A stretch of 64,000 nucleotides of DNA from an uncultured Tateyamaria sp. (GTDB lineage: Bacteria; Pseudomonadota; Alphaproteobacteria; Rhodobacterales; Rhodobacteraceae): contig NZ_CANNGP010000023.1 in assembly GCF_947504105.1 (NCBI RefSeq), forward strand, positions 1-64,000, read 5' to 3'. Below the pieces are notes generated by a model, which was given only the letters and a program-made list of their open reading frames with translations, ran no database searches and was not told the DNA's origin. The translations under genes were made by a program, and so were the position numbers. Below are positions 8,167-27,400 of the stretch, piece after piece (within the stretch, counting starts at the first letter, position 1; each line of letters begins with the position of its first letter).

Positions 8167-8533
8167 TCAATCGAATGCCGTCGCCACGTAGACCGAAATA
8201 TTGACAATATCCTCGTCCGACAGCCGCTTGGCATGAGAGATCATCAGGATCGAATTGGGCCCAATCTTTTCACCGGCGCGATACCTTTCAAGCTGCGTGG
8301 CGATATAGGCAGGGTCCAGGTCAGCAAGTGCAGGATAGCTTGAGGCCCCTTGTGCCTTGTTGCCATGGCAAGCCCTGCACGATTTTCGAAAGATGTCCTG
8401 CGCCGCGTCCACGTCGATCACTTGGTCTTCGGATATCGCGGCGGCGCTGGGCGCTGCTGTCCGTCGTGGTATCCGCCCAAGTGGCGCACGCCCAAACGCT
8501 GATCGCAACGGTCAAAAGGCAGCGTATTAGCAT
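8167..8533 (-). pseudogene. Frameshifted class I cytochrome c
   Basis: The mature part carries one heme motif CRACH and a likely Met ligand in ILMISHAKRLSD, typical of small periplasmic cytochromes c. The signal peptide (MLIRCLLTVAISVWACATWA) is in a different frame: reading from ATG 8533 the frame runs into ADTTTDSSAQRRRD, while the mature frame reads SAAAISEDQVIDVD at the same place. One extra base (or two missing) near 8450 separates them. Removing one C gives a continuous 121-residue export-ready cytochrome. Either a true disabling mutation or a sequencing error; the remaining sequence is well preserved. Confidence 0.75.
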
Positions 8534-8816
8534 CGGCACGGGTCTCCTCTGCTTGCACAATCCCTCAGTAGTAGAAGGTCCAGCGCAATTCGTCCAATGC
8601 CCGTCCGCGTCGGGAACGCGATCGGGTGGTCTATGGACTGCTAGGAGAGGTGGGGATTTTGCACCAAAGACACCTCGCTCATCCCGTCTGCCTCCAGAAC
8701 AGGCGGACCCACATCCAATGCCAGCTGCTGCGGTAAAAATATTAACAGTTCCTGAATCCGCCGCTGTAACCCATTGAAATTTCTAAGGCTGGAACATGTC
8801 CCACGCCGGGACACCC

Positions 8817-9461
8817 CTACCGCGACAGGGCCGCAGCCTCCTTCGCCAAGGCCTCGATCCCGGCCCAATCCCCGGCTGCGACCAGGTCCTTGGGGGCGAC
8901 CCAGGATCCACCGGCACAGACCACATTTGGCAGGCTCAGATAGCTATTCGCATTCCCCATGCTCACCCCACCCGTCGGGCAGAACGATATCTGCGGCAAG
9001 GGCGCACCAATGGCCTTCAAAGCAGGTGCCCCGCCTGATGCCTCAGCCGGAAAAAACTTGAGCATATCGTATCCACGTTCGAACAGGCACATCGCCTCGG
9101 AAGCCGTGGCAGCCCCCGGCAATAAGGGCAAATCCTCGGCCTCGCAGGCCGCAATCAGTGCCTCGGTGGCACCGGGCGACACCCCAAACTGCGCGCCAGC
9201 CTCCTTGGCCGCCTTCACGTCATCCGGCGTGACCAACGTCCCTGCACCAACAACGCCACCTGGCACCTTGGACATCGCTGCGATCACATCCAATGCAGCT
9301 GGGGTGCGCAGCGTCACTTCAAGCGCCGGTAGCCCACCCGCCACCAATGCTTCGGCCAGTGGCCGCGCATGGGCGACGTCATCGACCACAAGCACCGGCA
9401 CGATCGGGGCCAGGTCACAGATTTCGCGGGCGCGCACGGCAGCAGCTTTGGCAGTCAGCAT
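8817..9461 (-). CDS. eda: KDPG/KHG aldolase (Entner-Doudoroff)
   Basis: The 214-residue protein is 2-keto-3-deoxy-6-phosphogluconate aldolase, splitting KDPG into pyruvate and glyceraldehyde-3-phosphate. Seen are VPVLVVDD, the Glu motif LEVTLRTPAALD, VGAGTL and the Schiff-base Lys in MLKFFPAE, and the phosphate-binding CPTGGV. It follows edd directly: the edd stop and the eda ATG abut as TGAATG. Together they form the lower Entner-Doudoroff route, the main sugar pathway in roseobacters. Confidence 0.96.
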   Translation of the reverse strand: MLTAKAAAVRAREICDLAPIVPVLVVDDVAHARPLAEALVAGGLPALEVTLRTPAALDVIAAMSKVPGGVVGAGTLVTPDDVKAAKEAGAQFGVSPGATEALIAACEAEDLPLLPGAATASEAMCLFERGYDMLKFFPAEASGGAPALKAIGAPLPQISFCPTGGVSMGNANSYLSLPNVVCAGGSWVAPKDLVAAGDWAGIEALAKEAAALSR

Positions 9462-11276
9462 TCAAAAGTCTCCAAATACGGTTGCGCCAGTATTGGCGGA
9501 CCCGACGGTATTACGGAAGGCGTGGAACATGTCGCGCCCAGCCCCCCATTGGTTGGCCGAAAGATCAGCCGTGGCATGAGGGCGGTCAAGCACACCTTCA
9601 GTCAGAACTTCAAGTTGCCCCGCCTCGGCGTCAACGCGGATCAGGTCGCCGTCCCGCACTTGCGCGATCACACCCCCATCCAGCGCCTCGGGGCAAACAT
9701 GGATGGCGGATGGCACCTTGCCCGATGCGCCGGACATGCGGCCATCCGTGACCAGCGCCACCTTCTGCCCACGGCCCTGCATGATGCCCAGTAGCGGTGT
9801 CAGGCTGTGCAATTCCGGCATCCCATTGGCCCTGGGTCCCTGGAACCGAACCACGATAACAAAATCACCTTCGTTGAATTCGCCAGCCTTGAACGCGGCC
9901 TTCACGTCGTCTTGTTCATGGAACACGCGCGCCGGGGCTTCAACGATCCGGTGTTCCGGTGCCACGGCCGAGATTTTCATGACCCCTGTTCCCAAGTTGC
10001 CGGCAAGGCGGCTCAGACCGCCGGTTTCCTGAAACGGATCAGACGCAGGGCGTACGATCTTTTCATTCAGGCTTTTACCCGCGCCCGCTTCCCAGGTCAG
10101 TGCACCGTCGATCAGCTTGGGTTCCTGCGTATAGTTCTCAAGCCCCTCACCCGCGACTGTCTGAGTGTCATCGTGCAGCAAGCCTGCGCCCAAAAGCTCG
10201 CCAATCATGAAGCCAAGACCACCCGCCGCGTGGAAGTGGTTCACGTCCGCCAAGCCATTGGGATAGACGCGCGCGATCAGCGGTGTCACTTCCGACAAGT
10301 CGCAGAAGTCTTCCCAATCCAACACAATGCCCCCGGCCCGCGCCATGGCGATCAAGTGGATCAACAAGTTGGTCGACCCACCCGTCGCACTCAGGCCAAC
10401 GATCCCATTCACGAACGCCTTCTCATCCAGGATATTGCAGACCGGCGTGTAGTTGTTGCCCAGAGCCGACAAGGACAGCGCGCGCTTGGCCCCTTCAACT
10501 GTCAGCGCGTCGCGCAGCGGGGTGTTCGGGTTGACGAAGGACGAGCCCGGCAGATGCAGGCCCATGAATTCCATCAGCATCTGGTTGGTGTTGGCCGTGC
10601 CATAGAAGGTACAGGTGCCCGGACCATGGTAGGCGGCCATCTCTGACGCGAGCAATTCCTCACGCGTCGCTTCGCCCGCCGCGAACCTCTGGCGGACCTT
10701 GGCCTTTTCATCATTGGACAAGCCGCTGGTCATCGGACCTGCAGGGAGGAAAACAGCTGGCATGTGACCAAAGGATTGGGCCGCGATGATCAAACCCGGC
10801 ACGATCTTGTCGCAGACGCCCAGAAAGACGGCGGCATCGAAGACATTGTGGGACAGCGCCACACCGGTCGCCATAGCGATCACGTCACGCGAGAACAGAC
10901 TCAACTCCATGCCTGCCTCACCTTGGGTCACACCGTCGCACATGGCGGGCACACCGCCCGCCACTTGCGCAGTTCCGCCCTCCGCCCGGATCGCGTCGCG
11001 GATCAGGGTCGGGTAGGTCTCGAACGGCTGATGTGCCGACAGCATGTCATTGTAGGCCGTGACAATCCCAAGATTGCCAACGCTTGCTTCGGCCAGCCGG
11101 GACTGGTCAGGACCAGCCGCGGCAAACGCATGGGCCTGGCCGCTACAGGACAGGTGCGCGCGGGCCGGACCTTGGGACTTGGCGGTAGCCATCCGATCCA
11201 GATACCGACGTCGTGTCGGTGCGCTGCGTTCGATCACACGTTCAGTCACGCGCTCAAGTGTAGGGTGCAGGGGCAT
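9462..11276 (-). CDS. edd: Phosphogluconate dehydratase
   Basis: A 604-residue IlvD/Edd-family dehydratase converting 6-phosphogluconate to KDPG using a [4Fe-4S] cluster. Signature segments are [39 protein letters not shown], the Cys in [14 protein letters not shown], and the C-terminal [18 protein letters not shown]. Length agrees with the family (about 600). It is first in the edd-eda operon; a LacI-type operator lies about 54 bases before its ATG. Confidence 0.97.
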
Positions 11277-19313: not shown

Positions 19314-19781
19314 TCAGATCACTGCGAGCCGATCCGCTGGGAAATACAGAAGGCGCACGGCCGCCTCCATGTCTGCGCGCAAGTCTTCCCGCATCTCTTC
19401 ATGCAAGCGCATCACCAACGCATCACCGGTCACCTCGGTACGTGGCTCTTTCGCAAACCACGCCTCTTCACAGATCAGGTCCTCGAACAGCGGATCGATC
19501 ACGGCACCGCCGCCTCCGGGATATCGGTAGTATCCCCAGCCAAACCGTTTTCCTAAACGGCCCTCAGCTACCATACGCGACAATACGGGTGTAACATCCA
19601 CGCCGTTACGGGCCCTTAGCACCGCATCCAGACCGACAAGGTCCTGCGTCTCGCAAGGTCCCAGACCATATCCCCACGCCACCAGCGCCTCATCCAGTTC
19701 CCAGGGGGTCGTATGTCGATAGAGCAATCGTTCGCAAACGCACCAGAACGCATTTTGCAACGGCGCAACACGCGCGCTCAA
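19314..19781 (-). CDS. Small 3-hydroxyacyl-CoA dehydrogenase C-terminal-domain protein
   Basis: The 155-residue product resembles only the C-terminal helical domain of 3-hydroxyacyl-CoA dehydrogenases (PWELDEALVAWGYGLGPCETQDLVGLD, MVAEGRLGKRFGWGYYRYPGG). The NAD-binding Rossmann domain is absent, so it probably does not catalyse the reaction alone. It starts with TTG 19781, overlapping the boxR stop (TTGA), and is the last gene of the box operon. It could be a truncated remnant or a stand-alone partner of an enoyl-CoA/dehydrogenase system; I cannot decide. Confidence 0.65.
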   Translation of the reverse strand: MSARVAPLQNAFWCVCERLLYRHTTPWELDEALVAWGYGLGPCETQDLVGLDAVLRARNGVDVTPVLSRMVAEGRLGKRFGWGYYRYPGGGGAVIDPLFEDLICEEAWFAKEPRTEVTGDALVMRLHEEMREDLRADMEAAVRLLYFPADRLAVI

Positions 19782-20674
19782 GGTCCCAACCCTTCCAGGA
19801 AACGCTGCTTGGCAATAATGGCCAGCAATTCGTTCACTGACATGGACACGGGCTTGGCCGACGTATCGACCTGCGCCAAGGCCCGTTCATATGCCGGGCT
19901 ACGTGTGCTCAATAACGCCTTCAGCTGCTCCATAGCCGCCGGGTTGCCCGCCATGGGGCGCACATCACCCTGGGCACGCACACGGGCCATGTGCTCGCCC
20001 GCGCTGGTGCGGACCCATATGGTGTGGAAGCGCTCCAACACCATGTCATAGGTGGTCTTGTCCCCGACGATACCACCGGCCACGGCAAGGATCAGCTTGT
20101 CATGGCGGGCCACCACCTGCGACACGGCCTCGGCCTCAAGCGCACGATACCCGTCCTGACCATACAAACCCATAACCTCAGACAAGGGCATACCGGCATT
20201 GACCTCAATCTCTTGATTCAGCTCGACAAAAGGGATCTTCAGCTTGTCGGCCGCCATGCGGCCCAAGGTCGATTTGCCTGCCCCACGCAAACCGACCAGA
20301 CAAATACGCTGGGCGCGTAGCGCCATCGGGTTCTGCGGCGCCAACAGGGCCCGCACACGTCCTTGGACCTGTGCCGGAGCTGCCTGGTAAAGGCGCGCCA
20401 CACGTGCCACGTCACCGTCCATCGGGGCGGCCTCCGACAGCAAATCCTCGATCCGGACATTCAGGGCTGTCGCCACACGCTCGAGCAGAATGACGGAAAT
20501 ATTGCCTTCCCCCGCCTCCAACTGGGCAAGGTAACGGGGTGATACGCCCGATCGCTCGGACAAGGCGCGTCGGGGTAATCCCAACGCCTCGCGTGCCGCA
20601 CGAACGCGGGTAGCGAGGCGCGCGATCATGGGAATTGCTCCGTCGGGTATGGGTCTTGGTGATGTCATGCGCAC
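19778..20674 (-). CDS. boxR: BoxR/BzdR-type regulator (XRE HTH fused to shikimate-kinase-like domain)
   Basis: The 298-residue protein has an N-terminal XRE helix-turn-helix (residues about 17-75: REALGLPRRALSERSGVSPRYLAQLE) and a C-terminal shikimate-kinase-like domain (about 125-298, P-loop LVGLRGAGKSTLG). This fusion is the hallmark of BoxR/BzdR, repressors of benzoate pathways that respond to benzoyl-CoA. It is encoded within the box operon downstream of the thioesterase. Known family operators contain TGCA repeats; matching sites lie upstream of boxC and of the benzoate-CoA ligase gene. Confidence 0.92.
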   Translation of the reverse strand: MRMTSPRPIPDGAIPMIARLATRVRAAREALGLPRRALSERSGVSPRYLAQLEAGEGNISVILLERVATALNVRIEDLLSEAAPMDGDVARVARLYQAAPAQVQGRVRALLAPQNPMALRAQRICLVGLRGAGKSTLGRMAADKLKIPFVELNQEIEVNAGMPLSEVMGLYGQDGYRALEAEAVSQVVARHDKLILAVAGGIVGDKTTYDMVLERFHTIWVRTSAGEHMARVRAQGDVRPMAGNPAAMEQLKALLSTRSPAYERALAQVDTSAKPVSMSVNELLAIIAKQRFLEGLGP

Positions 20675-20727: not shown

Positions 20728-21150
20728 TCAAATGTCGCGAATGTGTGGAGCAAGCACAGCACGCAGCTCAGGCGGGGCTGATTGGCTCTTGAATTGGTCG
20801 GCAATTATGAAGACGCAGGTGAACGTACCCTCAAAGCACAACACACCATCCTGCCGCCCGTCCACGCGGAAGGTGACAGACTTTTCGCCCAGACGGCTGG
20901 GCCAAACCGCACACATCAGGCGATGACGCGGCGTGACAGGCGACCGGAAATCCATGCTCATATGAACAAAGGGCGTGCCAATGTTGCGATCCAGTTCAAG
21001 CTGATACCAGCCATCTCCGCCCAAATGCGCTTCCCACCACGCATTTATGGCGTCCAACGCAAACCATGGTAGCCGGGCGGTATAGGCAATCCTGGCCGGG
21101 TCACAATCACCCCAAGTGACCCGGATTTCATGTTCGAAAACTGCACTCAA
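20728..21150 (-). CDS. Hot-dog acyl-CoA thioesterase
   Basis: A 140-residue 4-hydroxybenzoyl-CoA-thioesterase-like protein: VTWGDCDPARIAYTARLPWFALDA contains the catalytic Asp region of this family (D17 in the DPARI motif). In the box operon it probably releases CoA from benzoyl-CoA or other dead-end thioesters to free trapped CoA. Its start overlaps the flavodoxin stop (ATGA), and boxR follows about 50 bases downstream. Confidence 0.88.
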   Translation of the reverse strand: MSAVFEHEIRVTWGDCDPARIAYTARLPWFALDAINAWWEAHLGGDGWYQLELDRNIGTPFVHMSMDFRSPVTPRHRLMCAVWPSRLGEKSVTFRVDGRQDGVLCFEGTFTCVFIIADQFKSQSAPPELRAVLAPHIRDI

Positions 21151-21608
21151 GCAGCTTTGTCCGCCGCCATCAGGCCCATGATCCCCTGCACCCAGGGCAA
21201 GGCCACATCCTCGGGCATGTCAAACCCCGACGCATCATGCAGGCCACGTTCACCAACCTGAACAGCGCCTTGCGCTTTCAGAATCTCGCTCAGTTTCATG
21301 GACCCATGATTGAACGTCTCGGCAAAGACCATGTCGCCCAACCCGAAAATGGCAAAACGGACCCCGTTCAGGTCCGGCTTGCCTTCGGTCAACGCCTCTT
21401 CAAACGGCAGCGCGGTCGATGGCAGATCGCCATTGCCATATGTCGAAGTTACGATGATATAGAACGCATCCTTCTCCATCGCGGCAGGGTCTACGTCAGC
21501 AAGGCTCTGGATGTCGCAGTCGAACCCCTCGCCCAGTTCCGTCTCGATGTCTTCGCATAACATCTCGGAATTGCCCGTCTCGGACCCGTAGTAAATTCCA
21601 ACTTTCAT
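21147..21608 (-). CDS. Flavodoxin-domain protein in the box operon
   Basis: The 153-residue protein is a short-chain flavodoxin/MioC-like domain: phosphate loop YYGSETGNSEM, FMN-stacking stretches VTSTYGNGDLPS and FGLGDMVFAETF. It should carry FMN and transfer electrons in the cytoplasm. It sits between a Cys-rich small protein and a thioesterase, all downstream of boxB. BoxB needs reductant, usually from the iron-sulfur flavoprotein BoxA; no BoxA is seen, so this flavodoxin is a plausible replacement electron donor (inference). Confidence 0.85.
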   Translation of the reverse strand: MKVGIYYGSETGNSEMLCEDIETELGEGFDCDIQSLADVDPAAMEKDAFYIIVTSTYGNGDLPSTALPFEEALTEGKPDLNGVRFAIFGLGDMVFAETFNHGSMKLSEILKAQGAVQVGERGLHDASGFDMPEDVALPWVQGIMGLMAADKAA

Positions 21609-21618
21609 TCAACGCTCC

Positions 21619-21795
21619 CTAATGCACGCGTTCGGGTTCCGCGGCCTTGTATCGGCGGCACATTTCGTCTTGCTCGTCCCGCGTCAGCATCATGTAAAGC
21701 GCAAGGCACATTCCGGTGCATCCGTCGCATTCCAGCGCACAAAATGGGCGCCGGACCGGTGCATCGTCTGTCAGGGCTGTTCTGTCGATCTGCAT
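21619..21795 (-). CDS. Cys-rich small protein (58 aa) next to boxB
   Basis: I place the start at ATG 21795, preceded by GGAGG at the right distance; an ATG four codons earlier overlaps the boxB stop. The 58-residue product has a compact cysteine motif CALECDGCTGMC (CX3CX2CX3C) and one more Cys (EMCRRY). That pattern suggests metal or iron-sulfur binding. No transmembrane segment. Located between boxB and the flavodoxin, it may act in electron delivery to, or metal loading of, BoxB; this is inference, as I do not recognise the family. Confidence 0.65.
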   Translation of the reverse strand: MQIDRTALTDDAPVRRPFCALECDGCTGMCLALYMMLTRDEQDEMCRRYKAAEPERVH

Positions 21796-21806
21796 AACAT
21801 CCTCCA

Positions 21807-23255
21807 TCAGGCCATATGCAGCTTAACATATTCGAAATCCCCTGGCTTGTTGTCGATGCCCACACGGGGCGGCGAAATCCAGCTGGCATATTTTCCGGGC
21901 TCATAGCACGGCTTCATCAAGGACTGGATAAAGGCGCCGTCTTCCTTGGTCGGCAGCCATTCAGACGCACGCGCATCCCACTCTTCCTGGCTGACAAAAC
22001 TGCCGTCCGGCGTGATCGGCTGGTTCGCAAAGATACCGATTTTCCGGTGGAACCCCTCATGAGGCAGCTTCAGTTCAAACTCGATGCCCGTGCGCGAAAT
22101 CTGCTTGTTCCAACGGCGCAAGCCACCGGAAGCATCGCGCACATAGTCGTCGCGCAGACGCATGTTGATCGCCGTCAGGGCAGGCACATCCTCGGTTACG
22201 ATCTTGCCATCGACGATGCTCGCCACCTTGTAGGTGTCACCTGTCAGCTTGTGATCATCCTCGATCCGCTGCTCCATGTAGCGGCCCTTGATACCGGCAT
22301 TAAAGGCATTCGCGGCGTTCGTACTGACCTCTTGCCCGAACAGATCAAGAGACAGGGTATAGTGCAGGTTCAGCTTCTTCTGGATCGTGGGCAGGTCAAT
22401 CACACCCAGATCGCGGATCTTGTCGATGTCATAGGGATCGTCGATGCCGTTGGCTTTCATCGCTTCAAGCGTCGCCTGAACGGTCCGGGTCACGCCTGTC
22501 TCGCCCACAAACATGTGGTGCGCTTCCTCGGTCAACATGAAGCGGCAGGTGCGTGACAGCGGGTCAAAGCCGGACTGCGCAAGGCTTTCCAACTGCATCT
22601 TGCCGTCACGGTCCGTGAAATAGGTGAACATGAAGAAGGACAACCAGTCCGGTGTCTCTTCGTTGAAGGCGCCCAGCATCCGAGGCGCATCCTCGTTGCC
22701 CGATGACCGCACCAACATGTCATCGGCTTCCTCACGCCCATCCTTGCCGAAATATTTTTGGAGCAGATAGACCATCGCCCAAAGATGTCGGCCTTCCTCG
22801 ACATTCACCTGAAACAGATTCCTCATGTCGTAAAGCGACGGCGCGGTCAGCCCCAGAAAGCGTTGCTGTTCAACCGACCCCGGCTCGGTATCCCCCTGGA
22901 TCACGATCAGACGTTTGAGCATGTTGCGATACTCGCCCGGCACCTCCTGCCACGCAGGCTCACCATAATGCTCACCCATCGGAATACGGCGGTCCTCAAC
23001 CGCGGGGGCCAGCAGAACGCCCCAGAGATATTCTGGCATCTTCACATAGTCGAACTTGGCCCAACCCTTCGGGTCCACGCTGACCGCAGTGCGCAGATAG
23101 ACCATGCTTTCCTGAAAATGCTGCGGAATCAGGTCGTTCCACCAGTTGATGTAACCGGGGTGCCATTTCTCAAGTGCCTTCAGCACCTTGCGGTCCTGAC
23201 TCAGACCCACGTTGTTGGGGATTTGGGTGTCATAGCTGACATTCATCACAGTCAT
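21807..23255 (-). CDS. boxB: Benzoyl-CoA 2,3-epoxidase, oxygenase subunit BoxB
   Basis: The 482-residue protein is BoxB, a class I di-iron enzyme that converts benzoyl-CoA with O2 to the 2,3-epoxide. Ligand-type helices are visible: FQVNVEEGRHLWAM and RFMLTEEAHHMFVGETG, each with the E..H pattern of di-iron proteins, and WWNDLIPQHFQESMVYLRTA near the N-terminus. I start at ATG 23255 behind GGAGGAG; the frame extends 14 codons upstream. boxC precedes it by about 50 bases. No boxA reductase is adjacent. Confidence 0.95.
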   Translation of the reverse strand: MTVMNVSYDTQIPNNVGLSQDRKVLKALEKWHPGYINWWNDLIPQHFQESMVYLRTAVSVDPKGWAKFDYVKMPEYLWGVLLAPAVEDRRIPMGEHYGEPAWQEVPGEYRNMLKRLIVIQGDTEPGSVEQQRFLGLTAPSLYDMRNLFQVNVEEGRHLWAMVYLLQKYFGKDGREEADDMLVRSSGNEDAPRMLGAFNEETPDWLSFFMFTYFTDRDGKMQLESLAQSGFDPLSRTCRFMLTEEAHHMFVGETGVTRTVQATLEAMKANGIDDPYDIDKIRDLGVIDLPTIQKKLNLHYTLSLDLFGQEVSTNAANAFNAGIKGRYMEQRIEDDHKLTGDTYKVASIVDGKIVTEDVPALTAINMRLRDDYVRDASGGLRRWNKQISRTGIEFELKLPHEGFHRKIGIFANQPITPDGSFVSQEEWDARASEWLPTKEDGAFIQSLMKPCYEPGKYASWISPPRVGIDNKPGDFEYVKLHMA

Positions 23256-23306
23256 GTCTTCTTCTCCTCCATCCGCGGTGGGCAATCTGCCTACCAACTG
23301 CGCGGG

Positions 23307-24965
23307 TTACACCCGCTCCATGTTGAAATCACCGCGCACACCGGTCCCGTACCGCTGCAACGCACCATCTTCGCCAACCGCATTGGGCCGGTTGAAAATC
23401 CAGTTCTGCCACGCAGTGAGGCGGCCAAAGATGCGCGTCTCCATCGTCTCAGGCCCGGCAAAGCGCAGGTTCGCCTCCATCCCCGTCATGGCATCGGGTG
23501 AGAAGCTCACACGTTCCTCAAGGAAGATGCGAATTTCATCCTCCCAATCGATGTCATCAAGGATTTCCGTCACAAGCCCCGCGTCATCAGCCTCCTCGGC
23601 ATCAAGCGCCTCGCCAATCTGATCGCGCAGCCCCGTGGCATCGTCGGATCCGTAGAATCGTGTCTGCAACCGGGTCAGATCATTGCCCATCGGGTAGGCT
23701 CCGAAATTCCCTTCGCTCAAGGTGATGGTCGCAAGGAGCCGATTGTCCCCTTCGAATTCGTCTTCCATCATGTAGGAGCGATCGACCGCCCAAAGCAGCT
23801 CAGCCAGTACACCAGCAAAGCAGCTCCCATGCTCAACCAGCGCCACCAATGACCGCGAGGTTACATCGACCCGCTTCAACACCCGCTTCCAGTAGTGCCG
23901 GATTTCATTGCACAGCCAGTGATCCCGGTTGTCGAGGATCAGCGCCTCATGCGCCAGAACAGCCTCCGGATCACCTTGGCTCCGGATCACCCACAGGCCA
24001 GCCCCCATCTCGTTCAAGCGCAGATGGAGAATGGCGTCCTCCAACTCCCGCGCCAAACGCAAGATGTAGGACTGATCACCTTCCGCCACCAACGTATCAA
24101 CATCCGCAGGGGCATCGCCCTCCGGCCCTTTGATCAAAACCTCCGCCCGCCGCGCTGCGCGATCCACGGTCACCTCAACCAGCCCATAGGTCACCGAGCC
24201 ATCGTCAGACACCGTCCGCTCAATCGGCCCCAGCACAATCCCCCGCGCCACATCCGGCTTGTCCGACGCCGCGGCAAACTCCACCGCCCGCGCCGCCACG
24301 ACCTCGTCAAAGCGGGCATTGGGCACGGCCTCATCCACCAGCTTCCACTGTACGGCCCGCTTGCCCTTTACCCCTTCCTCGGTCGAACAAAACACATCCG
24401 CCCGATCCCGCCGTACCATCCGCTTGTCCGTTACGCGGGTCAGGCCACCTGTCCCCGGCAACACCGCCAGCAGCGGCACCTCGGGCAAAGCGACCGAAGA
24501 GGTCGAGTCATCCGTCAGCATGATATGATTGCACGCCAGCGCCAGCTCATACCCCCCACCGGCACAAGCCCCTTTGACCGCTGCCACATATTTCTGCCCG
24601 CTCTCTGCCTCAGCCGCTTCATAGGCATTGCGCGTTTCATTCGTGAACTTGCAGAAATTGACCTTGTGGGAATGCGCCGCACCACCCAACATCCGAATAT
24701 TGGCGCCTGCGCAAAACACCCGGTCCTTGGCGGATTTCATCACGACCACCTTCACCTCCGGATGCTCAAACCGCATCCGCTGCACCACATCATTCAACTC
24801 AATATCGACGCCCAGATCGTAGGAATTCAGCTTCAACTGATACCCATCGAACAATCCGCCATCTTCATCCACATCCATCCACAGGGTCGCCACCGGACCC
24901 TCATACTCCACACGCCAATGGCGATAGCGGGACGGGTCAGTGCGAAAGTCGATGGTCTGGGTCAT
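23307..24965 (-). CDS. boxC: 2,3-epoxybenzoyl-CoA dihydrolase BoxC
   Basis: BoxC opens the 2,3-epoxybenzoyl-CoA ring hydrolytically, giving 3,4-dehydroadipyl-CoA semialdehyde and formate. The 552-residue protein belongs to the crotonase superfamily but is longer than usual, with crotonase-like segments VKVVVMKSAKDRVFCAGANIRML, AAVKGACAGGGYELALACNHIML and LPGTGGL, and a long C-terminal part ending FNRPNAVGEDGALQRYGTG. It is the first gene of the box operon and has candidate operators directly upstream. Confidence 0.95.
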   Translation of the reverse strand: MTQTIDFRTDPSRYRHWRVEYEGPVATLWMDVDEDGGLFDGYQLKLNSYDLGVDIELNDVVQRMRFEHPEVKVVVMKSAKDRVFCAGANIRMLGGAAHSHKVNFCKFTNETRNAYEAAEAESGQKYVAAVKGACAGGGYELALACNHIMLTDDSTSSVALPEVPLLAVLPGTGGLTRVTDKRMVRRDRADVFCSTEEGVKGKRAVQWKLVDEAVPNARFDEVVAARAVEFAAASDKPDVARGIVLGPIERTVSDDGSVTYGLVEVTVDRAARRAEVLIKGPEGDAPADVDTLVAEGDQSYILRLARELEDAILHLRLNEMGAGLWVIRSQGDPEAVLAHEALILDNRDHWLCNEIRHYWKRVLKRVDVTSRSLVALVEHGSCFAGVLAELLWAVDRSYMMEDEFEGDNRLLATITLSEGNFGAYPMGNDLTRLQTRFYGSDDATGLRDQIGEALDAEEADDAGLVTEILDDIDWEDEIRIFLEERVSFSPDAMTGMEANLRFAGPETMETRIFGRLTAWQNWIFNRPNAVGEDGALQRYGTGVRGDFNMERV

Positions 24966-25058: not shown

Positions 25059-25072
25059 TGCACTTTACTGCA
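25059..25072. promoter_or_regulatory. Candidate BoxR operator upstream of boxC
   Basis: TGCA-CTTTAC-TGCA, a direct TGCA-N6-TGCA repeat, matches the operator type reported for BzdR/BoxR regulators. It overlaps the stop codon of the upstream alpha/beta hydrolase and lies about 95 bases from boxC. A close copy is at 27480. Confidence 0.6.
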
Positions 25073-25877
25073 CCTCCGAGAGGGCATCTTCCAGGGCGAT
25101 CAATGTCTCGCAGAACCCTGCCACCGCGGGCGTCACGACCTCGGGCGTATCCTGATGCGGCGCGTGCCCTGCACCATCCACGATCAGTGCTTCAACGGGG
25201 GAATAGGCCCGTTCCTCGACCTCGCGCACCTGTGCCAACGTGCCATAGGCATCCTCTGCCCCCTGTACGACCAGCGCCGGAATGCGCCAGTGATCGATGG
25301 CATCACCCACATTCCAATCGGCGAACCCGGGATCGGTCCAAGCATCGTGCCAGCCGTAAAAGGCCACCGCAGGATCATCGTGATGGCGCACCAACCGGTC
25401 TTTCAGGTTGCCTGTTTCATAGGCCACCTTCGCCGCGCGAATGGCCTCCAACCCCTCAGGCTCCGTAAAGAAGTGCGGCGCGATCAGGATCAGCCCCCGC
25501 ACACGCATGTCAGACACCGTCCCAGCATAGATGCCCGCAATTGTTGCGCCGTCCGAATGGCCCAGCAACACGGCATTTTCGATCCCGACCGCATCCATGA
25601 ACGGCCCCAGAACATCCACTGCCTCGCGGCTCATATAGTCCAGCGGGCGCGGCAAAGGAACGGTCGAGGATCGACCATATCCCGCACGGGAATAGGCCAT
25701 CACGCCCATGCCGGTCGCCGCGGCCAGCTCGGCAGGCCAGTCCCGCCACAGACCGACAGATCCAAGCCCCTCATGCAGCATTACCAGCGTTGGCGCGTCA
25801 CCGGGCGCAGGTCCCCAACACGCATAATCCAGCACCTGCCCCGCAACCAAAACCGTACCCGCCGACCACTCCATCAC
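25065..25877 (-). CDS. Alpha/beta hydrolase
   Basis: A 270-residue alpha/beta-hydrolase-fold protein with the oxyanion region LHEGLGSVGLWRDWP, nucleophile elbow LGHSDGATIA, and the catalytic His in VDGAGHAPHQD. In this operon it could cleave an aromatic ester or a pathway intermediate (for example the lactone or thioester forms), but the substrate is not recognisable. Its start overlaps the stop of the benzoate-CoA ligase gene (ATGA), and its stop overlaps a TGCA-type operator. Confidence 0.85.
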   Translation of the reverse strand: MMEWSAGTVLVAGQVLDYACWGPAPGDAPTLVMLHEGLGSVGLWRDWPAELAAATGMGVMAYSRAGYGRSSTVPLPRPLDYMSREAVDVLGPFMDAVGIENAVLLGHSDGATIAGIYAGTVSDMRVRGLILIAPHFFTEPEGLEAIRAAKVAYETGNLKDRLVRHHDDPAVAFYGWHDAWTDPGFADWNVGDAIDHWRIPALVVQGAEDAYGTLAQVREVEERAYSPVEALIVDGAGHAPHQDTPEVVTPAVAGFCETLIALEDALSEVQ

Positions 25878-27400
25878 ACATCCTCACGCAGCTTGAATCG
25901 TTGGATCTTGCCCGTCGCCGTTTTGGGCAGGCTGTCCACGCACTCGACCCAACGCGGGTACTTCCACTTGCCCACGCGGTCCTTCACATGATCCTTCAGC
26001 ATCTCTTCCAACCCATCAGGCCGCACGCCATGGGGCACGACAAAGGCCTTGGGCTTGTCCAACCCATCCGCATCCTTCATCGCAACCACCGCGCATTCCA
26101 AAACGGACGCATGAGACGTAATCGCCTGCTCCACCTCGAAGGGGCTGACCCAGATGCCGGACACCTTGAACATGTCATCCGTCCGCCCGCAGTAGACATA
26201 TCGCCCGTCCGCGCGGCGCTCATATTTGTCGCCGGTTCGCGTCCATACGCCCTCAAATGTTTCGCGTGTTTTGTCGCGTTGGTTCCAATAGCCGCCCGCA
26301 GCAGAGGCCCCGTTGACCAGCAACTCGCCCACTTCGCCCGTACCAACATCCGCGCCATGCTCATCCACCAGCCGCACGTCATAGCCCGGCACAGGCACGC
26401 CTGAAGTGCCGTAAACAACATCATCCGGTGCATTCGACAGAAAGATATGCAGCATCTCGGTCGATCCAACCCCATCCAGGATCGGCACGCCGGTCAGCTT
26501 TTCCCATCGGGTGCCAACATCCTCCGGCAGCGCCTCTCCGGCAGAAATGCACCTGCGCAACGGCGCATCGGGCGTTCCTTCCGCCTCCATATGCGCAACC
26601 ATGGCCGCATAAAGCGTTGGCACGCCACAGAATACGGTCGGCTGTGCGTCGGCAATCACTTGTACCATCACATCCGGCGTGGGCCGCCCGCCAAAGATCA
26701 CAACGGTCGCCCCAACTGACATGGGAAAGGTCATCGCATTGCCCAGGCCATAGGCGAAAAAGAATTTGGCAGCGGAAAACACCACATCGTCTTCGCGCAC
26801 CTGCAAGACCTGCGCACCATAGGTGTCTGCCGTCGCCCGCAGCGCCGAATGGATGTGAGACACCCCCTTGGGCTGCCCGGTCGAGCCCGAGGAATAGAGC
26901 CAGAAGGCCGTCTCGTCGTCCTTGGCCTCAAACGGGTCAATCGGCCCGTCAGCCCTAGTCATGAAACTGTCGTAGGTCTCGGCCCCATCCCGGGCACCGC
27001 CAATCACCACGACCCGACGCAGGAACGGATTGTCCGCCAGAACAGGCGCCACAACCTTCCACAAAGCCTCAGAAACAATCAACATCGTGGCGCGACTGTC
27101 GCGCAGGATCGCGTCATAGACAGGGGTCGCCAGCAACGTGTTCAGGGGCACCGGAATGACCCCAGCCTTGAGCGCGCCCCAGAACAGGATCGGAAACTCG
27201 ATCTGGTCCAGCACCAGCATGGCAACCCGTTCCTCGGGCCGGATATCCGCCGCTAGAAACGCTGCCCCAGCGCGCCCTGATGCGTCAGCCAGCGCGCCAT
27301 ATGTCAGGCTGCGCCCTGTGCCGACCTCGCGAAAGGCAAGCTTGGCGCCCCGCCCCTCGGTGACATGTCGATCCACGAAATACGATGCCGCGTTTGCCAT
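25874..27400 (-). CDS. Benzoate-CoA ligase family protein
   Basis: The 508-residue adenylate-forming enzyme activates an aromatic acid with ATP and CoA. The AMP-binding motif is LYSSGSTGQPKGVSH; later motifs are VPTLYAAMV, LDGVGSTEMLHIFLSN, the hinge region RTGDKYERRADGRYVYCGR and the C-terminal catalytic Lys in LPKTATGKIQRFKLR. Length and the GSTEMLHIF motif agree with benzoate-CoA ligases that feed box pathways. It is followed by an alpha/beta hydrolase and then the box genes, and a TGCA-type operator lies 80 bases upstream. Confidence 0.93.
   Translation of the reverse strand: MANAASYFVDRHVTEGRGAKLAFREVGTGRSLTYGALADASGRAGAAFLAADIRPEERVAMLVLDQIEFPILFWGALKAGVIPVPLNTLLATPVYDAILRDSRATMLIVSEALWKVVAPVLADNPFLRRVVVIGGARDGAETYDSFMTRADGPIDPFEAKDDETAFWLYSSGSTGQPKGVSHIHSALRATADTYGAQVLQVREDDVVFSAAKFFFAYGLGNAMTFPMSVGATVVIFGGRPTPDVMVQVIADAQPTVFCGVPTLYAAMVAHMEAEGTPDAPLRRCISAGEALPEDVGTRWEKLTGVPILDGVGSTEMLHIFLSNAPDDVVYGTSGVPVPGYDVRLVDEHGADVGTGEVGELLVNGASAAGGYWNQRDKTRETFEGVWTRTGDKYERRADGRYVYCGRTDDMFKVSGIWVSPFEVEQAITSHASVLECAVVAMKDADGLDKPKAFVVPHGVRPDGLEEMLKDHVKDRVGKWKYPRWVECVDSLPKTATGKIQRFKLREDV

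Follow-up and report, generated by a model that had tools for sequence, protein, structure and literature searches.

The 64,000-nucleotide stretch analysed here (the window; contig NZ_CANNGP010000023.1 of an uncultured Tateyamaria sp.) carries a box operon for aerobic benzoyl-CoA degradation in which a flavodoxin occupies the place of boxA, the gene for the usual electron donor of the epoxidase BoxB. The genes are tightly packed on the minus strand, in the following order:

25874-27400, minus strand: benzoate-CoA ligase (TIGR02262, 723 bits)
25065-25877, minus strand: alpha/beta hydrolase of the box operon, in the slot between ligase and boxC, as is usual in relatives
23307-24965, minus strand: boxC, 2,3-epoxybenzoyl-CoA dihydrolase (TIGR03222, 964.8 bits, cut-off 712.3)
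21807-23297, minus strand: boxB, di-iron benzoyl-CoA 2,3-epoxidase (TIGR03225, 894.4 bits, cut-off 499.1, profile positions 1-471 of 471)
22083-22148, minus strand: BoxB residues 384-405 (numbered from TTG 23297), which hold the partner-tracking positions 390-402; the R394 codon lies at 22116-22118
21619-21795, minus strand: Cys58, a 58-residue Cys-rich protein with the motif CX3CX2CX3C (C19-X3-C23-X2-C26-X3-C30)
21147-21608, minus strand: box flavodoxin, 153 amino acids, cindoxin-like (PF00258, 90.3 bits, cut-off 25)
20728-21150, minus strand: hotdog acyl-CoA thioesterase (PF13279, 42.9 bits, cut-off 25.5)
19778-20674, minus strand: boxR regulator, helix-turn-helix plus shikimate-kinase-like domain (NF006015, 352.1 bits, cut-off 204)

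The open frame of boxB begins with TTG at 23297, and its probable start is the ATG at 23255. The spacing is operon-like, with 11 nt between the boxB stop and the ATG of Cys58, 10 nt between the Cys58 stop and the flavodoxin, and a 4-nt overlap of flavodoxin and thioesterase, provided that the latter starts at TTG 21150. The oxygenase gene adjoining the flavodoxin is boxB.

BoxB requires two electrons per turnover, which usually travel from NADPH through BoxA, a protein with FAD and two [4Fe-4S] clusters; BoxA thereby holds eight cluster irons and a flavodoxin none. A first-pass annotation of this DNA had described the order from boxC to boxR, with its short gaps and overlaps, and had noted that BoxA is missing from the 64 kb. 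All the genes are present as claimed, and the absence of BoxA extends to the whole assembly (4.76 Mb, 214 contigs, stated completeness 100), where no match to TIGR03224 exceeds the cut-off. The best one reaches 68.3 bits against a cut-off of 459.2 and covers only profile positions 199-395, the reductase half. It sits in a 578-residue frame with a match to the flavodoxin profile in its N-terminal part, and by its domain make-up this frame is a CysJ-like protein, not BoxA. Matches to PF00175 (FNR-type NAD-binding domain) number five in the genome, none of them on the contig of the window. An assembly gap is an unlikely cause, because relatives within and outside the genus show the same arrangement. 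The genome is accordingly without the TIGR03224 BoxA that marks a canonical BoxAB system.

The flavodoxin is of the short-chain type, with the P-loop GSETGNSE and the loops STYGNGDLP and FGLGDMVF, which we take to be the 50s and the 90s loop. Its nearest solved relative by sequence is cindoxin (4oxx, 2.5e-27). An AF2 model (mean pLDDT 95.2) shows alternating strands and helices, and its top Foldseek matches are flavodoxins and FMN domains, headed by the same cindoxin structure (E 1.5e-12, TM 0.88, 39% identity). In the flavodoxin alignment the phosphate loop and the flavin loops look typical, the P-loop of the SAR116 members excepted. Comparison with six Tateyamaria gave dN/dS values of 0.03-0.12 (dS above 1 in four comparisons); the gene is under purifying selection.

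One role that such a protein might play is that of NrdI, the flavodoxin-like protein that services the di-iron site of class Ib ribonucleotide reductase: it would load or re-reduce the di-iron site of BoxB as a maintenance or activation factor and would not be the turnover donor. The match to the NrdI family PF07972 is weak and below the cut-off (18.6 bits versus 27), and cindoxin, MioC and the FMN domains of P450 reductases score far better. Moreover, with BoxA missing, BoxB would have no known donor for its turnover, and its di-iron ligand positions are unchanged (see below). We regard this role as highly improbable.

The distribution of flavodoxin and BoxA was explored in a draw of 295 Rhodobacteraceae genomes, of which 62 are BoxB-positive, the genome of the window (G000) included. 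BoxA exceeds the cut-off in 56 of the 61 others; it lies within 626 nt of boxB in 54 of these 56 and on another contig in the remaining two (G080, G213). The five without BoxA are G240, G056, G102, G139 and G220, and in G240, G056 and G139 a flavodoxin fills the boxA slot. A flavodoxin profile search of the 62 genomes gave four matches above 260 bits (G000, G240, G139, G056), all adjoining boxB and all in genomes without BoxA; lower-scoring relatives (181-202 bits) lie away from boxB in seven BoxA-positive genomes, and scores under 65 bits come from a few CysJ-like frames. The mutual exclusion of BoxA and a boxB-adjacent flavodoxin gives a Fisher p of 2e-6 when kinship is ignored, over the 60 genomes that can be resolved for BoxA, which sets G102 and G220 aside. 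The G102 contig ends 4 nt past the boxB match, and no BoxA or flavodoxin was found elsewhere in that genome. In G220 a boxC piece runs into a C-terminal piece of BoxA (L208, 4706-5542), with a separate boxB and a Cys-motif mini-protein on another contig; this locus is rearranged, decaying or an assembly join.

A genome scan with the flavodoxin alignment widened this picture. It covered the best 80 of 138 relatives, so that its counts are lower bounds, and 30 of these 80 loci carry a box-linked flavodoxin, with no boxA found within the stretches retrieved; three (L070, L083, L084) are G240, G056 and G139 again. Members include 13 Tateyamaria, Roseicyclus, Pacificoceanicola onchidii, a Pseudoprimorskyibacter metagenome-assembled genome (MAG), two Rhizobiaceae MAGs and four SAR116 genomes, with two further alphaproteobacteria that group with the SAR116 genomes in the flavodoxin tree. 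The closest records are Tateyamaria, and in one of them (L061) the flavodoxin is 97% and BoxB 99% identical to those of the window. The flavodoxin slot lies between boxB and the thioesterase or boxR, the position of boxA in relatives, and in many relatives a thioesterase gene stands 3' of boxA or of the flavodoxin. BoxA exceeds the cut-off in none of the 30 whole genomes; matches below it, to the reductase half, occur in eight. The first-pass annotation had suggested comparing the neighbourhood across roseobacters and had named a BoxA homologue elsewhere in the genome as the finding that would speak against a different redox arm. The comparison returned the same slot in G240, G056, G139 and other lineages, with Cys58 not constant, and no such homologue over the cut-off came to light in the window's genome or in the 30. 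Gene content and order thus show that the flavodoxin has taken over the boxA slot, that this recurs, and that the box-flavodoxin genomes searched lack BoxA; the change from BoxA to flavodoxin is a multi-lineage gene replacement in box operons.

Taken together, it is very likely that a soluble cindoxin-like flavodoxin has replaced BoxA in the same operon slot and serves as the donor of BoxB, through NADPH, an FPR-type reductase and the flavodoxin. The first-pass annotation had proposed that the flavodoxin, possibly with the Cys-rich protein as a second carrier, supplies BoxB with electrons or helps load its di-iron site. The flavodoxin part is upheld as far as a likely donor in the slot of BoxA goes (0/30 genomes with BoxA); the distribution of Cys58 and its relatives does not support the Cys-rich protein as a component of the replacement, and nothing in the data speaks for di-iron loading.

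BoxA-type Rhodobacteraceae loci carry a small frame with the motif CX2CX2CX3C between boxB and boxA in 29 of 38 cases (loci within L009-L038, L056 and L161-L175). These frames are mostly 49-67 residues long and often resemble Cys58 at the N terminus (e.g. L009:3055-3231). In all, 36 of 50 BoxA-type loci gave a small frame; in seven (L156, L159, L160, L162, L165, L167, L178) it is the N terminus of BoxA itself and was not counted. The alignment of this family (A3, 29 members) omits L013 and L021 and includes L057 and L059, where BoxA lies on a different contig. Comparing the Tateyamaria form with it by hhalign gave a probability of 90.9 (E 1.2e-6), and Cys58 is probably a variant of this box-operon family. 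Its motif departs from CX2CX2CX3C, which we take as the typical 4Fe-4S ferredoxin motif and which the BoxA-context homologues keep.

This bears on the proposal that flavodoxin and Cys-rich protein replace BoxA jointly, with the latter as an obligate second carrier from flavodoxin to BoxB. The two genes do separate boxB from the following gene of the operon in the window, in the DT_100 MAG (L084) and in 11 of 13 other Tateyamaria loci, and the presence of a ferredoxin-like Cys motif in BoxA operons as well makes a relay conceivable in both settings. The mini-protein is, however, lacking in 19 of 31 flavodoxin-type loci, among them the Tateyamaria loci L068 and L086, where the flavodoxin begins 10 nt after boxB, and L133, counted here since its 80-nt gap between boxB and flavodoxin is too short for one. 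It stands beside BoxA in the 29 loci above, in a form for which no Pfam or NCBIfam model scores over its cut-off. A joint replacement is therefore unlikely, and Cys58 as part of the BoxA replacement was rejected as a general rule, given its relatives in BoxA operons. In either set-up Cys58 may instead have a relay or accessory function, and by its motif the family resembles a mini-ferredoxin.

Cys58 (as a 62-residue frame) has no Pfam match up to E 1, and no relative in the PDB was found (best E 1.3). Weak Fer4 matches occur in a few of the 29 A3 members, the first of which scores 14.8 bits against a cut-off of 27 and gives a poor fold prediction (mean pLDDT 63.4, pTM 0.32). Values of dN/dS are 0.04-0.23 for Cys58 in 4/6 computable Tateyamaria comparisons and 0.04-0.29 for the mini-proteins, several with saturated dS; such low values support real genes. 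A profile search, scoring at most 22 candidates per genome, found the mini-protein in 47 of the 295 Rhodobacteraceae: 40 of the 62 BoxB-positive and 7 of the 233 BoxB-negative genomes, one of the latter weakly. The association (Fisher p 2e-26, kinship ignored) is overstated, since most of the sequences behind the profile came from boxB loci of this draw, so that the enrichment is in part built in. The roughly 12 kb around the mini-protein in six BoxB-negative genomes (L200-L205) yielded no box gene, save a weak thioesterase match in L202; in L200 and L203 the gene adjoins a similar one.

The BoxB sequences were then compared between the two types of locus. The solved relative is 3per (1.6e-201), and the positions of the di-iron ligands, placed through its alignment and taken by us to be Glu120, Glu150, His153, Asp211, Glu240 and His243, are identical in 96 of 96 BoxB rows. 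When 31 flavodoxin-type rows were set against 45 alphaproteobacterial BoxA-type rows (30 and 44 distinct sequences), a single one of 496 columns told them apart without exception: at position 394, 31/31 of the former have R, N or S and 45/45 of the latter G, K, E, T or Q. The next-best columns cluster at 390-402. The BoxB of Pacificoceanicola (L082) has BoxA-type proteins as its nearest sequences (87-90% identity) and is placed among them in the tree, yet its locus has the flavodoxin and it carries R394; the BoxA-type rows L022, L026 and L175 are placed among flavodoxin-type rows, yet have G394. Segment 390-402 is a candidate donor-docking patch, where contact with the donor may occur.

The BoxB tree comprises the same 96 rows, after removal of same-genome duplicates, of L133 (frame broken by ambiguous bases) and of L051 (contig ends after boxB); identical sequences in it are L023/L056, from one genome, and L186/L075. 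Locus L132, in which boxB is too incomplete, enters neither the tree nor the set of 31. Neither a single origin of the flavodoxin-type BoxB (approximately unbiased test, p-AU 0.297) nor a single clade of box flavodoxins in the flavodoxin tree (p-AU 0.329) is rejected. With residues 384-405 left out, the best BoxB tree has seven changes of partner, at least two of them forced by well-supported (starred) branches; with these residues included there are five changes, one of them forced.

The source of electrons for the flavodoxin was sought among its relatives. A gene related to a single putative NAD(P)-binding FAD reductase stands within 3.5 kb of 41 of the 50 non-box flavodoxins; we take this reductase to be of the adrenodoxin/FprA type, and it matches GltD-type models below the cut-off only. 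Judged by eye from sequence, these operons hold aldehyde dehydrogenase-like, thiamine-enzyme-like or Rieske-like genes, and 39 of the 41 flavodoxins fall in a separate, well-supported clade. This frequency led us to look for such a reductase beside the box flavodoxins, where neither the window nor the box loci retrieved gave a match better than E 0.028; as a neighbour of the box flavodoxin it was rejected. The window's genome holds two weak local matches to it (32-36% identity over about 155 residues) and encodes an FPR (ferredoxin/flavodoxin-NADP reductase) whose best solved match is 2bgi (1.9e-120), presumably the Rhodobacter capsulatus enzyme. FPR was found in 26 of 31 host genomes.

Other associations of this flavodoxin family were also observed. 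In the SAR116 locus L123, two frames resembling Rieske oxygenases (by eye; 8412-10070) lie directly downstream of the flavodoxin-bearing box operon, and frames of this look also occur with reductase-linked flavodoxins in L099, L106, L119 and L120. Related flavodoxins that have no box genes and no putative reductase gene near them occur in L115, L122, L126 (Hyphomicrobium), L074, L079 and L111.

In the mechanism that we propose, electrons from NADPH would enter a housekeeping FPR-type reductase and be handed singly to the di-iron centre of BoxB by the flavodoxin, which would dock on BoxB perhaps at segment 390-402. The donor of BoxB would be a loose partner and hence readily exchanged. A plausible advantage of the flavodoxin is the saving of eight cluster irons in iron-poor seawater. 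Going further, we tentatively entertain, as a possibility that falls short of probable, an iron-sparing system of NADPH, FPR, dedicated flavodoxin and BoxB that arose more than once in marine alphaproteobacteria, in which the 390-402 patch, with 394 as its key residue, would be re-tuned at each exchange and a mini-ferredoxin beside boxB would serve both versions.

Several observations weigh against the flavodoxin as donor of BoxB or against its repeated recruitment. FPR was not found at E 1e-20 in five of the 31 hosts, all SAR116 or SAR116-like genomes of 1.8-2.2 Mb, and where present it lends weak support, since it is a common housekeeping gene. As a single origin is not rejected, the lineages of flavodoxin type may represent few events. 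At position 394 the residue classes were defined after inspection of the alignment; one of eight betaproteobacterial BoxA-type rows has N394 (the other seven E or G), and among the 12 rows that have no donor of either kind next to boxB, ten have L394, one K394 and one (L184) N394. G102, whose partner is hidden by the contig end, has A394. Among kinship-independent pairs, residue 394 agrees in 2/2 supported ones, too few for significance.

A further point of this kind came from a second draw of 398 Pseudomonadota, 35 of them BoxB-positive and 31 of these tested for BoxA. BoxA is over the cut-off in 18; among the 13 without it, G501 and G525 have a flavodoxin next to boxB, and the other eleven (11/31) have neither donor beside it. 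The eleven are nine genomes of genus code g308 (6-9 Mb), which we take to be Bradyrhizobium-like, together with G458 and G593 (loci include L179-L182, L184 and L185); 18-19 kb were inspected in six and about 1.5 kb on each side of boxB in the other five. The flavodoxin as an explanation of every BoxB without BoxA was accordingly rejected: the nine g308 genomes match the profile weakly (32-39 bits), inside frames of 1,078-1,130 residues, and the better matches in G458 and G593 (108 and 112 bits) lie away from boxB.

An unlinked donor is consequently possible in the genome of the window too: a general reductase or ferredoxin encoded elsewhere would feed BoxB, and the flavodoxin would serve another step or another oxygenase. 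Besides the eleven genomes, the Rieske-like frames downstream of the L123 box operon speak for this. It is hard to reconcile with the strict replacement of boxA by the flavodoxin beside boxB in several lineages, and with a BoxB column that tracks the type of partner, and we judge it very unlikely.

BoxA is treated as an obligatory subunit. In a genomic survey, the cluster of Azoarcus (Aromatoleum) evansii holds boxC, boxR and the benzoate-CoA ligase together, and clusters lacking the BoxA or BoxB subunit are described as an incomplete context, the absence of BoxA from one cluster being read as an impediment to degradation (PMC10803450). The window shares with the A. evansii system the BoxB family, the conserved di-iron ligand positions and these three genes, and differs from it by having a flavodoxin in the slot of BoxA; at 3per position 373, BoxB has D in A. 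evansii and R in the window. Cindoxin is described as the FMN donor in a chain from NADPH through cindoxin reductase to P450cin, in which the E. coli flavodoxin reductase can substitute for cindoxin reductase (PMC9687028). It is the nearest solved flavodoxin by sequence and fold, and shares with the proposed box donor the part of a one-electron FMN carrier to a monooxygenase; the box partner, in contrast, would be a di-iron epoxidase and not a P450, and the box loci have no adrenodoxin-type reductase gene. The flavodoxin/FAD-reductase pairs of alphaproteobacteria (e.g. L093, L099) are similar in their flavodoxins (46-57% identical) and in catabolic-looking operons, some with Rieske-like genes, and unlike the box flavodoxins they have their own reductase gene beside them. 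The phenylacetyl-CoA epoxidase PaaABCE is a related di-iron enzyme acting on an aryl-CoA, and its PaaE is described as unlike BoxA (PMC4498308); the contig of the window has no PF00175 match.

The box operon with a flavodoxin for BoxA is a new variant of the known box system. No report of this replacement was found in the literature searched (including the accessible parts of PMC5489048, PMC9687028, PMC10803450, PMC4498308 and PMC9873259), a search that many subscription papers lie beyond, so that it may be described elsewhere. Our results suggest that in marine groups such as the roseobacters and SAR116, BoxA-less clusters with this flavodoxin draw on another donor and probably function. If the tentative iron-sparing system is real, many clusters now called incomplete for want of BoxA would be complete, and the partner of an alphaproteobacterial BoxB would often be predictable from one residue. 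With its candidate docking residue, the system offers a test case for how a di-iron epoxidase exchanges redox partners, and a possible example of an iron-saving exchange of Fe-S protein for flavodoxin in a catabolic oxygenase. The analysis also exposes a small Cys-motif family, with no named model, which adjoins boxB in the majority of the BoxA-type Rhodobacteraceae loci studied.

Next after boxR in the window lies a 155-residue frame (19314-19781, minus strand) that matches only the C-terminal domain of 3-hydroxyacyl-CoA dehydrogenase. A match to this protein recurs across the Tateyamaria loci, the full and the short form not being distinguished, and in L117 and L186 a frame of about 690 residues with the look of an enoyl-CoA hydratase/dehydrogenase stands in its place.

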